A stretch of DNA of 32,610 nt, taken from assembly GCA_029858425.1 (NCBI GenBank), contig JAOUFE010000013.1, forward strand, positions 1 to 32,610, in the 5' to 3' direction. The notes under the pieces are model-generated. The model was not told where the DNA came from and did not search any database. It worked only from the letters and a program-made list of their open reading frames with translations. Made by a program: the position numbers and the translations under genes. The stretch is from Spirochaetia bacterium (GTDB lineage Bacteria > Spirochaetota > Leptospiria > Turneriellales > JAOUFE01). Shown piece after piece: positions 10,416 through 24,382 of the stretch (position 1 is the first letter of the stretch; each line of letters opens with the position of its first letter).

Positions 10416-12623
10416 TTATTTGTGTATTGGACAGAAAAAATCAGGTTCGGTACCGCTTAAAAAACTCTGCCCCTTGACGGCATCGGGGCATGAATTTTCC
10501 GAATGCGGAACGCCGCCGGATTTTAAACAAAAATTTTCTTTGGTGATAGAGGATAGCGTGAAATTTTCTTTAAAAGGCGGCGGAGGATTATTCTTTTTTA
10601 CATTTTGAATGTATTCAATCCATACCGGAGAGCAGATGGATCCTCCTGATTTATCGTCGCCCAGGGGCGCATTCATGTCGCTGCCAATCCAGACCACGCT
10701 GGCCTCATCGGAGGTTAATCCGGCAAACCAGGCATCCTTGTGGTCGGAGGTTGTTCCGGTTTTTCCTGCAATTTCAAAATTTAGTGCGTCCCTGTTTTTA
10801 TTCCGGAGGTCGGCAACCCAGCCAGATGTTCCGTCCTTTTCAAAAATAGATTCCAGCATTTGAACCAGTATATAGGAAGCGTCAGGATTCATGATTTGCG
10901 TTTCCTGGGGTTTACCCTCATTGATCCAGAGCGTTTTACCCCGCACGTCTTCGACTCGCAGCATAAACACAGGATTTACCTGTCTTCCATTATTTATTAA
11001 AGTGGCATACATAACGGCAACTTCCATGGGAGAAAAAACGGGCGTACCAAGCGCAATTCCCATCTCCTGGGGAATACGCTCTGATAAATCCTGGGAAAGA
11101 ATTTTTTCCAGAAGATTGCGTAAAGAATTGATGCCTGTCATTTGCAGCGTCTTTACAGCAATCGTATTGCGGCTTTTTTTCAGGGCTTCGTAAACAGTAA
11201 TGTCGCCCAGATAGCCATTGTCATAGTTATGATATTCATATTTGCCGATTTTCAGGGGTTCATCTTTAACAATTGTGGCCGGAGTCAGTTTCTTTTTGTC
11301 AATGGCAAGATAGTAAATAAAAGGTTTCAATAGCGATCCAACCTGGCGGTAGGCCATGGTCGCGCGGTTAAATTGATTGCTGGCAGAGTACTCGCTGCCT
11401 CCGATCATGGTCAAGATATACCCGGTTTCAGGATCAAGCGTGATAAATGCGCCATTGGTTTTATCCGAAGCCGCACGAAAATGTTCGGCATCAGAGTTTC
11501 TACCTCTTTTTTTGGCTTCGGTTTGTTTGCGATTAAAATAATTTTTTTGATCTTCTATTGCTTTTTTCAACGCGAATTGAGCCCGATCTTGCCTTTCATA
11601 GTCCAGGGTAGTGTATATTCTCATGCCCCCCTTCATAAGCTCATCGGGAGAATAGGTTTTCAACAATTCCTGGCGAACCATTTCCAGGAAATAAGGCGCC
11701 AGGTTTATGCGGTATGATCTGTCGGGAAATTTTCCAATGTTGGAACTGAGCTGATTATTTAATTTTATCACGTCCCAATTCTCATAAAAATTCTTCAATT
11801 CCCTGTTGACTTCGGCGGCAGAAACAGCCTTGATCTCAACAAGTTTTTTTAAAACCGTTTTTTGCCGTTGTAAAGATTTGGCAAGGTCATTAACAGGGGA
11901 ATACTTTTCGGGGCTGGGAAGCAATCCAGCAAGGATGGCAGTTTCCGGCAGAGTAAGCGCTTCGCTGGGTTTGTTAAAATAATATTGAGACGCAGACTCA
12001 ATGCCAAAGTTGCCGTGTCCCATGTAAATTAAATTCAGGTACATTTCCAGTATCTGGCTTTTCGTAAATTTTTCTTCGATGGTAATTGTGGCAAAATATT
12101 CAAATATTTTTCTGCGCAGCGTTTTTTCCTGGTTGGTAAACAAAACCTTGGCAAGCTGCTGGGTAAGCGTGGAACCCCCCTGGGAATACTGGAGGGTAAC
12201 AATGTTTTTTAATACGGCTCTTAAAATAGAGGAATACCGGATACCATGATGTTCATAAAACTTTCTGTCTTCGGAGGCAATTAATGTTTGCGCCACATAT
12301 GGGGGCAGTTTGTCCAGATTAATCAGGGTGCGCCTTTCCGTAAAGAACTCGCCAATGAGTTTGTCGTTTTTGTCGAATACTCTCGACGGAATCGCCACAG
12401 TTCCGACTGAAACCGATGATCCTGTTTCTTCCGAAGGCAAGGGGGAACTCAGTAAATCAAGCTGCTTTCGGTAAGTAAAAAGTTTGTTGATGATTTCTTC
12501 TTTTTGGGAGTTCCAGCTTATGTAGGCGCCGACAAAATATAGAACAAACAAGGCAAAACAGAAAACAAATCCAAGTGTAATCCACAAAATGAATTTATCT
12601 TTAAATTTTGATTTTCTTTTCAT
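10416..12623 (-). CDS. Class A penicillin-binding protein (transglycosylase/transpeptidase)
   Basis: A 735-residue bifunctional peptidoglycan synthase of the PBP1A type. Residues about 13-35 form the N-terminal membrane anchor. The GT51 glycosyltransferase domain has catalytic E118 in ASEDRKFYEHHG, then GGSTLTQQLAK (149-159) and KIFEYFATITIEEKF. The transpeptidase domain has S430-L-L-K433 in RQVGSLLKPFIYYL, an SRN triad (KKSRNTIAV) and K621-T-G in IAGKTGTTSDHKDAWFAG, so all three catalytic boxes are present. The C-terminus has a Cys-containing tail (NFCLKSGGVPHSENSCPD...FFCPIHK) common in such proteins. The start codon lies only about seven bases from the end of repeat copy B, and no Shine-Dalgarno sequence is visible, so the element probably replaced or now forms the leader. 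Confidence 0.93.
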   Translation of the reverse strand: MKRKSKFKDKFILWITLGFVFCFALFVLYFVGAYISWNSQKEEIINKLFTYRKQLDLLSSPLPSEETGSSVSVGTVAIPSRVFDKNDKLIGEFFTERRTLINLDKLPPYVAQTLIASEDRKFYEHHGIRYSSILRAVLKNIVTLQYSQGGSTLTQQLAKVLFTNQEKTLRRKIFEYFATITIEEKFTKSQILEMYLNLIYMGHGNFGIESASQYYFNKPSEALTLPETAILAGLLPSPEKYSPVNDLAKSLQRQKTVLKKLVEIKAVSAAEVNRELKNFYENWDVIKLNNQLSSNIGKFPDRSYRINLAPYFLEMVRQELLKTYSPDELMKGGMRIYTTLDYERQDRAQFALKKAIEDQKNYFNRKQTEAKKRGRNSDAEHFRAASDKTNGAFITLDPETGYILTMIGGSEYSASNQFNRATMAYRQVGSLLKPFIYYLAIDKKKLTPATIVKDEPLKIGKYEYHNYDNGYLGDITVYEALKKSRNTIAVKTLQMTGINSLRNLLEKILSQDLSERIPQEMGIALGTPVFSPMEVAVMYATLINNGRQVNPVFMLRVEDVRGKTLWINEGKPQETQIMNPDASYILVQMLESIFEKDGTSGWVADLRNKNRDALNFEIAGKTGTTSDHKDAWFAGLTSDEASVVWIGSDMNAPLGDDKSGGSICSPVWIEYIQNVKKNNPPPPFKENFTLSSITKENFCLKSGGVPHSENSCPDAVKGQSFLSGTEPDFFCPIHK

Positions 12624-23154: not shown

Positions 23155-23435
23155 AACAGTCTGGCTTTCACGAAAAATACATCAGAAATATCTAATTTCA
23201 TATTTCATTATCGGTTTGCTTTCATCAAAGATAAATTTTTTTTAGTACCCATCCTTACCTGTCGCTATATTTCGCAGCTTTAAATAGCTTCAAATAAGGT
23301 AAAATCAAGGGGAATAAGTCGCTTTATGTTCATGATTGCCGTGAACCGATGATGAAACACAAAAATATATAAAGTGTACTTGTTTCACCGGCAAAGGCCG
23401 GGAGATGGTGCATATTTTCCAAAAAATGGGCTCTG
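23155..23435. other. Divergent spacer between mlaE and the flagellin leader
   Basis: No gene is visible. A CCGGC-AAAG-GCCGG hairpin lies at 23388-23401. TAAAGTGT (23370-23377), then nine bases, then ACCGGCAA (23387-23394) vaguely resembles a sigma-28 flagellar promoter (TAAA...GCCGATAA), but the spacing and -10 are poor. Promoters for mlaE (-) and flagellin (+) must lie here. Confidence 0.4.
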
Positions 23436-23531
23436 CCGGGGTGAAAGGGCTGATGCGTATTGCATCAGTCTTTTCACTCCGGTACGAGAACTCATCTGTT
23501 GTAGATGAGTCCATTCAATCCGGAGTGGAGG
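23436..23531 (+). promoter_or_regulatory. Structured flagellin leader with alternative anti-SD pairing
   Basis: Fold 1: 23436-23456 pairs with 23462-23482 over 21 consecutive positions (three G-U pairs) around the loop GTATT. Next is a perfect 8-bp hairpin, ACTCATCT-GTTGT-AGATGAGT (23490-23510). Fold 2: 23471-23482, the 3' arm of the first hairpin, can instead pair with CCGGAGTGGAGG (23520-23531) over 12 positions (three G-U), covering the ribosome site GGAGG completely. The two folds exclude each other. The 5' arm (CCGGGGTGAAAGGG) mimics the ribosome-site segment it competes with. The arrangement suggests switchable translation of the flagellin mRNA. Confidence 0.6.
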
Positions 23532-23536
23532 AAAAT

Positions 23537-24382
23537 ATGCAGGTAAACCACAACACATCGGCGATATTTGCCCTGAGGCAGATAAAAATGTCAGAATCCA
23601 TGCTGACAAAGTCTATTGAAAAGCTTTCCAGCGGAGAACGTATAAACCGGGCGGGCGATGACGCTACAAATCTGGCTGTTTCCGAGAAAATGCGCACGCA
23701 AATTCACGGATTAAAACAGGCAGAAGACAACGGCATGCTTGGTTTGTCTTTTTTGCAGGTAACCGAGGGCTCTTTAGCTCAGGTAAATGATGTTTTGCAG
23801 CGGATACGATCTTTGTCCATACAGGCTGCCAATGGCATTTACTCCGGAAGCGACAGGATGCAGATTAACGTAGAGGTATCCCAGTTGATTGATGAGGTTG
23901 ACAGAATTTCAACGTCGGCTGAGTTTAACCGGATGAAATTGCTTGATGGAAGCCTTTCCAAAAGCGGAAAAGCAAGCGTTTTTTTCCACGTTGGTCCAAA
24001 TCAAAACCAGAGAATCCATGCGTTTATTGCGACCATGAATTCGAAGGCTTTCAAGTTGACCGAGGGCGGTGTTAAAAAAGGCGTTTCAACAGTAGATAAA
24101 GCCAATAATATGCTCGGAACAGTCGACAGCGCGCTGGATAACTTGAACAAACAGCGAGCCAGCGTTGGAGCCTATTACAACAGGCTGGAAACAACGGTTC
24201 GTTCGTTGCAGACAGGTTACGAAAATATGGTCGCTGCCGAAAGCCGGGTACGGGATACGGATATGGCCGAAGAATTAGTGGAGTACACCAGACAGCAGGT
24301 GCTTTTGCAGAGTGGTACGGCGATGCTCGCACAGGCAAATCAAAAGTCAAAAATTGTTTTGCAACTGCTCAAGGAAATTTAA
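23537..24382 (+). CDS. Flagellin, spirochaete FlaB-like filament core protein
   Basis: A 281-residue flagellin. The N-terminal D0/D1 region (MQVNHNTSAIFALRQIKM..., LSSGERINRAGDDATNLAVSEKM, ANGIYSGSDRMQINVEVSQLIDEVDRIS) and the C-terminal region (NKQRASVGAYYNRLE, AAESRVRDTDMAEELVEYTRQQVLLQSGTAMLAQAN) are canonical. The short middle lacks a large outer domain and contains FFHVGPNQNQRIHAFIATMNSKA, a feature of periplasmic FlaB proteins of spirochaetes, so it probably builds the core of an endoflagellum. The start at ATG 23537 has GGAGG six bases upstream. The frame stays open to an ATG at 23405, but that extension spans the leader hairpins and breaks the family N-terminus. The protein has no Cys. 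It stands alone, away from other filament genes. Confidence 0.93.
   Translation: MQVNHNTSAIFALRQIKMSESMLTKSIEKLSSGERINRAGDDATNLAVSEKMRTQIHGLKQAEDNGMLGLSFLQVTEGSLAQVNDVLQRIRSLSIQAANGIYSGSDRMQINVEVSQLIDEVDRISTSAEFNRMKLLDGSLSKSGKASVFFHVGPNQNQRIHAFIATMNSKAFKLTEGGVKKGVSTVDKANNMLGTVDSALDNLNKQRASVGAYYNRLETTVRSLQTGYENMVAAESRVRDTDMAEELVEYTRQQVLLQSGTAMLAQANQKSKIVLQLLKEI

Follow-up and report, generated by a model that had tools for sequence, protein, structure and literature searches.

How translation could begin on a flagellin messenger whose start codon is buried in the most stable predicted fold of its own leader is the question raised by the locus described here. It lies in the window, by which we mean the whole stretch of 32,610 nucleotides that was analysed, contig C158 of a 2.65-Mb draft genome of a Spirochaetia bacterium. 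The gene encodes a FlaB-type core flagellin, and its product matches the Pfam families Flagellin_N (5.6e-37) and Flagellin_C (7.8e-22). For the complete leader, the predicted folding energy is -90.7 kcal/mol (z = -11.3), and none of 200 shuffled sequences folded as well; 15 other gene starts in the window have fold z-scores from about -2 to +1.7, i.e. they are unstructured. The elements of the locus, with the hairpins as predicted by folding, are the following.

23346 to 23355, + strand: candidate sigma-28 -10 element CCGATGATGA, identical in the sister species L015; transcript start probably near 23360
23382 to 23406, + strand: P0, hairpin with the loop AAAG, adjoining the anti-start arm on its 5′ side
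23409 to 23420, + strand: 5′ arm of P1, the anti-start arm UGCAUAUUUUCC, a perfect 12-bp complement of 23530 to 23541
23431 to 23488, + strand: P2, long hairpin made of a 21-bp hairpin and its extensions
23490 to 23510, + strand: P3, hairpin ACTCATCT-GTTGT-AGATGAGT with a perfect 8-bp stem, partly kept in L015
23511 to 23528, + strand: P4, small hairpin that includes the 5′ portion of the Shine-Dalgarno site
23530 to 23541, + strand: 3′ arm of P1, GGAAAAUAUGCA, which takes in the last part of the Shine-Dalgarno site, the spacer, the AUG and bases just beyond it
23537 to 24382, + strand: flagellin gene (281 aa), with its AUG at 23537 to 23539

The strongest start-related element of this leader is the 12-bp repeat formed by 23409-23420 and 23530-23541, which is absent from an earlier note made on the same DNA. 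The resulting helix, P1, is predicted to be the closing helix of the entire multibranch fold and to cover the AUG together with the end of the Shine-Dalgarno site. P1 has a pairing probability of 0.97, and the probability of an unpaired AUG is at most 0.01, whether or not the coding sequence is folded with the leader. Once the P1 arm is blocked in the model, the accessibility of the AUG becomes 0.62-0.74 and that of the Shine-Dalgarno site about 0.45. The long-range pairing of the AUG also lies above that of all 100 controls with shuffled upstream DNA, both in the window and in L015. The analysis supports the proposal of the earlier note that RNA pairing in this leader can hide the ribosome site, with 23409-23420 as the masking arm. 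The fold did not behave as an RNA thermometer in the model, in which the AUG remained unpaired at 0.01 or less and the Shine-Dalgarno site at about 0.1 from 10 to 55 °C, with no opening.

Inside the domain closed by P1, the P2 hairpin joins 23436-23456 to 23462-23482 by 21 bp, three of them G-U, and extends to 24 uninterrupted pairs; the longest uninterrupted helix of shuffled sequences (n = 60) was 9.3 bp on average and 13 bp at most. This hairpin and the perfect 8-bp hairpin at 23490-23510 had both been described before and are present as reported. P2 is a possible substrate of RNase III. Upstream of the fold, we infer a transcript start near 23360 from the conserved CCGATGATGA, which is similar to CCGATAA, the mapped -10 element of Treponema denticola flaB2 (PMC9481697). 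A search for a sigma-28 -35 element before the window flagellin gene gave no convincing match, and none was obtained for sigma-70 in the same region. The segment AAAAATATATA at 23360-23370, directly 5′ of P0, is unchanged in L015 and nearly repeats the P1 3′ arm (AAAAUAU); it could act as a competitor for the anti-start arm and may equally be promoter sequence. An in-frame upstream start, the ATG at 23405, reads open into the flagellin through the hairpin region (44 extra codons) and was dropped as a candidate, the frame in L015 being open for only 8 codons upstream. Reading the window and L015 side by side revealed no conserved upstream peptide, and the open frame at 23405-23536 is probably due to chance.

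Orthologues of this flagellin are 59-83% identical to it. The conservation of the fold was assessed in 30 of them, at about 62-83% identity and with their upstream DNA, of which 16, the window included, belong to the same order (group A, with relatives that include genomes titled Turneriella and Leptospiraceae) and 14 to another class of Spirochaetota (group B). Between the window and L015, all 46 consensus-fold pairs are kept, as compared with 39-50% when the comparison is slid. In L015, P1 keeps 12 of 12 pairs, with one double and two single changes, and P0 retains five of five core pairs, with one both-sided change between A-U and G-C. Covariation inside the genus is slight because the sample consists of these two genomes and the start codon leaves part of the 3′ arm no freedom to vary.

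Almost every group A leader folds strongly (z to -11.8), and hairpins of 12-24 bp, of unrelated sequence, recur in most of them. A duplex test, in which the upstream DNA alone was shuffled and the region first searched was -230 to +6, gave p = 0.014 for the window (0.045 with a wider search area), 0.010 for L015, 0.004 for L022, 0.002 for L023 and 0.026 for L020. The nine group A representatives combined gave 5e-4, with the reservation that shuffle p-values of related leaders are not independent. No significant arm was detected by the duplex tests in four other group A leaders (L016, L018, L027 and L041), and the same test on 29 other flagellin leaders yielded a combined value of 0.35, i.e. 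no arm signal. The other orthologues are not picked up by a covariance model built on the window and L015; the fold is therefore conserved as an architecture, not as a sequence.

Group B was missed by the first duplex test (p = 0.95), its arm being located at -257 to -283 and its pairing extending past the AUG. In all 14 aligned leaders of this group, an invariant arm, GATTCTCA, pairs with the start region AUGAGAAUC, and both-sided changes occur at 32 of the 54 pairs predicted from the alignment. With the widened test, the combined p-value of group B is 1e-10, and that of paralogues is still 0.31. This widening came after the group B alignment had been folded, and nine new genomes served as a check on unseen data. 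Searching 393 Spirochaetota genomes for a boxA plus GATTCTC pattern returned a consistent set in five families (f12, f23, f31, f41 and f46), together with scattered single matches. In every one of the nine genomes new to the analysis, the orthologous flagellin starts 275-297 nt downstream of the boxA and arm pattern, and the masking is lengthened by covarying non-coding pairs, e.g. GATTCTCATACGA/TCGTATGAGAATC or AACGCTC/GAGCGTT. GATTCTC was built into the search pattern, such that the independent part of this result is the position of the flagellin gene and the pairs outside GATTCTC. The earlier note had made its case depend on conserved pairing in orthologous leaders, and such pairing was found, in the form of a start-masking helix with changed sequences.

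We also observed that the group B leaders (L028-L033, L035-L040, L042 and L043; about -300 to the start) constitute a conserved structured RNA that is not in Rfam. Its parts are boxA, the anti-start arm, a GATG-GGGAGGG-CATC hairpin, a hairpin with the invariant TGGGCAGT, and a AAGGAGNNAACCTT hairpin that varies to GGGG/CCCC in five sequences. By eye, the TGGGCAGT segment is complementary to an upstream ACTGTCC, a possible pseudoknot.

These comparisons establish the complementarity of P1, its dominance in the predictions and its recurrence with compensating sequences in orthologues. On balance, we think that the leader probably works as a start-codon lock, which would keep flagellin translation off until it is opened, a possible new means of timing when flagella are made. 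We infer that P1 represses translation and that flagellin synthesis would depend on the lock failing to form or being opened. In the mechanism that we propose, the arm 23409-23420 would pair with 23530-23541 and close the compact hairpin domain, leaving a finished, free mRNA that would not be initiated. The lock might be prevented by ribosomes loading ahead of arm pairing, and it might be opened if the long P2 hairpin were cleaved or if a protein bound at the 5′ hairpin. As a counterpoint, the mRNA might in principle lack the 5′ arm, since the transcript start was placed from a conserved motif. The type I toxin mRNAs tisB and hok provide a parallel: pairing between a 5′ segment and the translation start keeps their full-length transcript inert, and they can be activated by processing. 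The flagellin leader would share with them a 5′ inhibitory arm over the start; in contrast, flagellin is a housekeeping structural gene, and processing is in its case a guess.

In most relatives, the arm begins 1-16 nt after a boxA (combined p = 3e-18 in group B and 5e-5 in group A). The group B boxA, GGTTCTTTGAAAACT, stands ahead of the arm in exact form in 12 of the 14 leaders and in near form in the other two; in group A, where it reads TGTTCTTTGACA or GCTCTTTGACA, there are five exact and several near forms. No boxA is recognisable in the window leader (best score 7.0 of 9.5, p = 0.98), nor in that of L015, and it reached significance in 0 of 29 other flagellin leaders. The window leader has the strand of the long-range helix, but without boxA, and its P0 occupies the place where relatives have this motif, the AAAG loop being conserved. 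BoxA seems to have been lost or replaced in the lineage of the window, and for this genus we therefore claim only the lock.

Two genomes have an rRNA boxA of this type before 16S, GGTTCTTTGAAAACT at -80 in G110 and TGTTCTTTGACAG at -224 in the presumed Turneriella parva. The rRNA boxA of the window's own genus is not readable, as both draft genomes lack 16S. The exact 13-mer GGTTCTTTGAAAA occurs 34 times in 17 group B genomes, versus 2 occurrences for the reversed pattern; 19 of these sites precede flagellin genes, among them several other paralogues, and four precede 16S, and those inspected among the remaining sites look mostly coding, in what is a loose classification. Some paralogues of group B genomes (L149, L153, L155, L156, L170 and L174) carry a boxA 163-228 nt upstream of the gene; they have different conserved leaders, e.g. 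with a CTGATAGGGAGATCAGG hairpin, and an arm beside boxA only in L174. A boxA-like GTTCTTTGAAAT was likewise noticed directly before the tmRNA gene of the sister species (L213, about 670, minus strand).

The order of elements in the boxA-bearing leaders matches that of rRNA precursors. In Escherichia coli rRNA, boxC lies 18-19 nt after boxA and forms a helix with the trailer, and it has been proposed that boxC waits at the polymerase, held via boxA and NusB, until the trailer emerges (PMC10250234). Similarly, the relatives of the window have boxA and then, within 1-16 nt, the 5′ strand of a long-range helix, the 3′ strand of which is transcribed only hundreds of bases further on, resulting in the layout boxA, arm, hairpins, complementary strand. 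The systems differ in that the flagellin 3′ strand is a ribosome site with a start codon and not an rRNA trailer, and in that the window has no boxA. It is tempting, if more speculative, to suggest that a class of Spirochaetota flagellin mRNAs copies the rRNA-precursor layout: boxA would recruit NusB-S10, the arm would be annealed to the emerging start, and the messenger would be protected from Rho, locked, and opened later, the window being a derived form without boxA. In boxA-bearing relatives, the NusB-S10 complex might carry the arm on the polymerase and so help to close the lock during transcription, and it could shield the untranslated transcript from Rho. The motif and its position are what point to an involvement of Nus factors in these relatives. 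A leader boxA is also known in the enterobacterial suhB mRNA, where Nus factors repress translation (PMC5725501). In both cases boxA lies in the 5′ leader of an mRNA that encodes a protein; however, the suhB boxA was looked for no farther than 50 nt from the gene, whereas that of flagellin leaders is found 160-330 nt upstream, and the flagellin relatives have a dedicated anti-start arm, the gene is another one and the window has no boxA.

Of the other explanations, control by the CsrA-FliW system survives best, even if we consider it unlikely. CsrA would act on GGA motifs at the ribosome site, the remaining fold being scaffolding. The earlier note had mentioned such control and indicated GGA motifs at 23522 and 23527; both are there, three GGA motifs in all shortly precede the AUG, and in L015 a GGAG sits in a hairpin loop. 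The genome carries fliW directly followed by csrA (G000:C191:12634-13187), the pair is also present in 20 of 20 relatives searched, and CsrA binds GGA hexaloops at the ribosome sites of Leptospira flaB genes (PMC8668096). However, an ANGGA hexaloop hairpin over the Shine-Dalgarno site was sought in the window (AATCCGGAGTGGAGG) and is absent, whereas the paralogues L003 and L004 and flagellins across the phylum have one; moreover, CsrA alone leaves the conserved distant arm and boxA unexplained. The leader resembles the CsrA-repressed leaders of Bacillus subtilis hag, Borrelia flaB and Leptospira flaB3/flaB4 in the proposed control of flagellin at the ribosome site and the presence of csrA and fliW, and differs from them in its masking by a distant RNA arm and its missing canonical hexaloop.

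At most other spirochaete flagellin starts (L003, L004 and L072-L126), the Shine-Dalgarno site lies in a short hairpin built as stem-C-ANGGAG-G-stem, the stems varying, which is the CsrA hexaloop form reported for Leptospira flaB (PMC8668096). On the contig that carries fliW and csrA, there is also a flagellin-like match at 11372-11668.

A role in stability only, or as a processing stalk for RNase III, appears to us rather improbable; ribosomes would then open P1 easily and translation would be unregulated by the fold. The hairpins of unrelated sequence that recur in most same-order leaders are as expected of such a stalk, but the start-masking arm is conserved independently of them, and in both groups its complementarity tracks the start-region sequence.

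The earlier note had read the leader as a two-state switch, in which the 21-bp hairpin alternates with a 12-bp helix and which is thrown by whatever occupies the 5′ arm of the hairpin. The helix in question involves two segments.

23471 to 23482, + strand: segment of the P2 3′ arm, alternative partner of 23520 to 23531, judged not formed
23520 to 23531, + strand: CCGGAGTGGAGG, alternative-helix partner, containing the Shine-Dalgarno GGAGG at 23527 to 23531

The two segments can indeed form 12 pairs, three of them G-U, which cover GGAGG entirely, and the helix reaches a probability of 0.81, with the ribosome site shut, only when the entire 21-nt 5′ arm (23436-23456) is blocked. In the free ensemble its probability is 0.00, and forcing it over 23362-23545 gives -72.4 versus -90.9 kcal/mol, i.e. 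18.5 kcal/mol worse. In growing-chain folds, the 21-bp hairpin is complete ahead of the transcription of the ribosome site, and even with the 5′ arm blocked P1 forms together with the alternative helix (fold of 23380-23545). The compensatory changes anticipated for orthologous leaders are seen in P1 and P0 by comparison with L015, in which the alternative helix is instead broken by an A-G mismatch, and we regard the switch as very improbable. Hardly credible, finally, is an artefact or something that acts at the DNA level, be it an inverted repeat derived from a transposon, a terminator or an untranscribed leader. A mobile element could have left behind a long inverted repeat that is nearly perfect, but the leader is single copy in its own genome, its position and pairing are retained in L015, no hairpin with a U-tract that would make an intrinsic-terminator attenuator exists on its + strand, and Rfam gave no match.

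In this Rfam search, the window had only a sub-threshold chance match of a hairpin to a microRNA model, and the relatives had none. A structured RNA upstream of flagellar genes, Termite-flg, has been described in uncultured termite-gut bacteria. Its covariance model (RF01729) found no match in the window, and 0 of 150 genomes scored over the gathering cut-off; the window leader is comparable to Termite-flg as a structured RNA upstream of a flagellar gene and differs from it in failing this cut-off.

The start-codon lock remains the reading that we favour, and the window is best seen as one boxA-less member of a conserved start-locking flagellin leader that is undescribed in the literature and RNA families searched. 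Flagellin is among the costliest proteins of a cell. Motility genes of spirochaetes are said to be controlled largely after transcription, by mechanisms that are only partly known (PMC3757020). The lock gives a clear prediction in the cultured T. parva, despite the degenerate boxA-like motif of that species, and the boxA-bearing leaders would offer a compact system for asking whether the Nus complex chaperones long-range RNA pairing. If our proposal is true, filament synthesis would be coupled to Nus factors or free S10, and the known range of boxA, so far rRNA and a few mRNAs, would come to include a major structural gene. A conserved start-codon lock, with an rRNA-type boxA in most relatives, would add a new layer of motility control.
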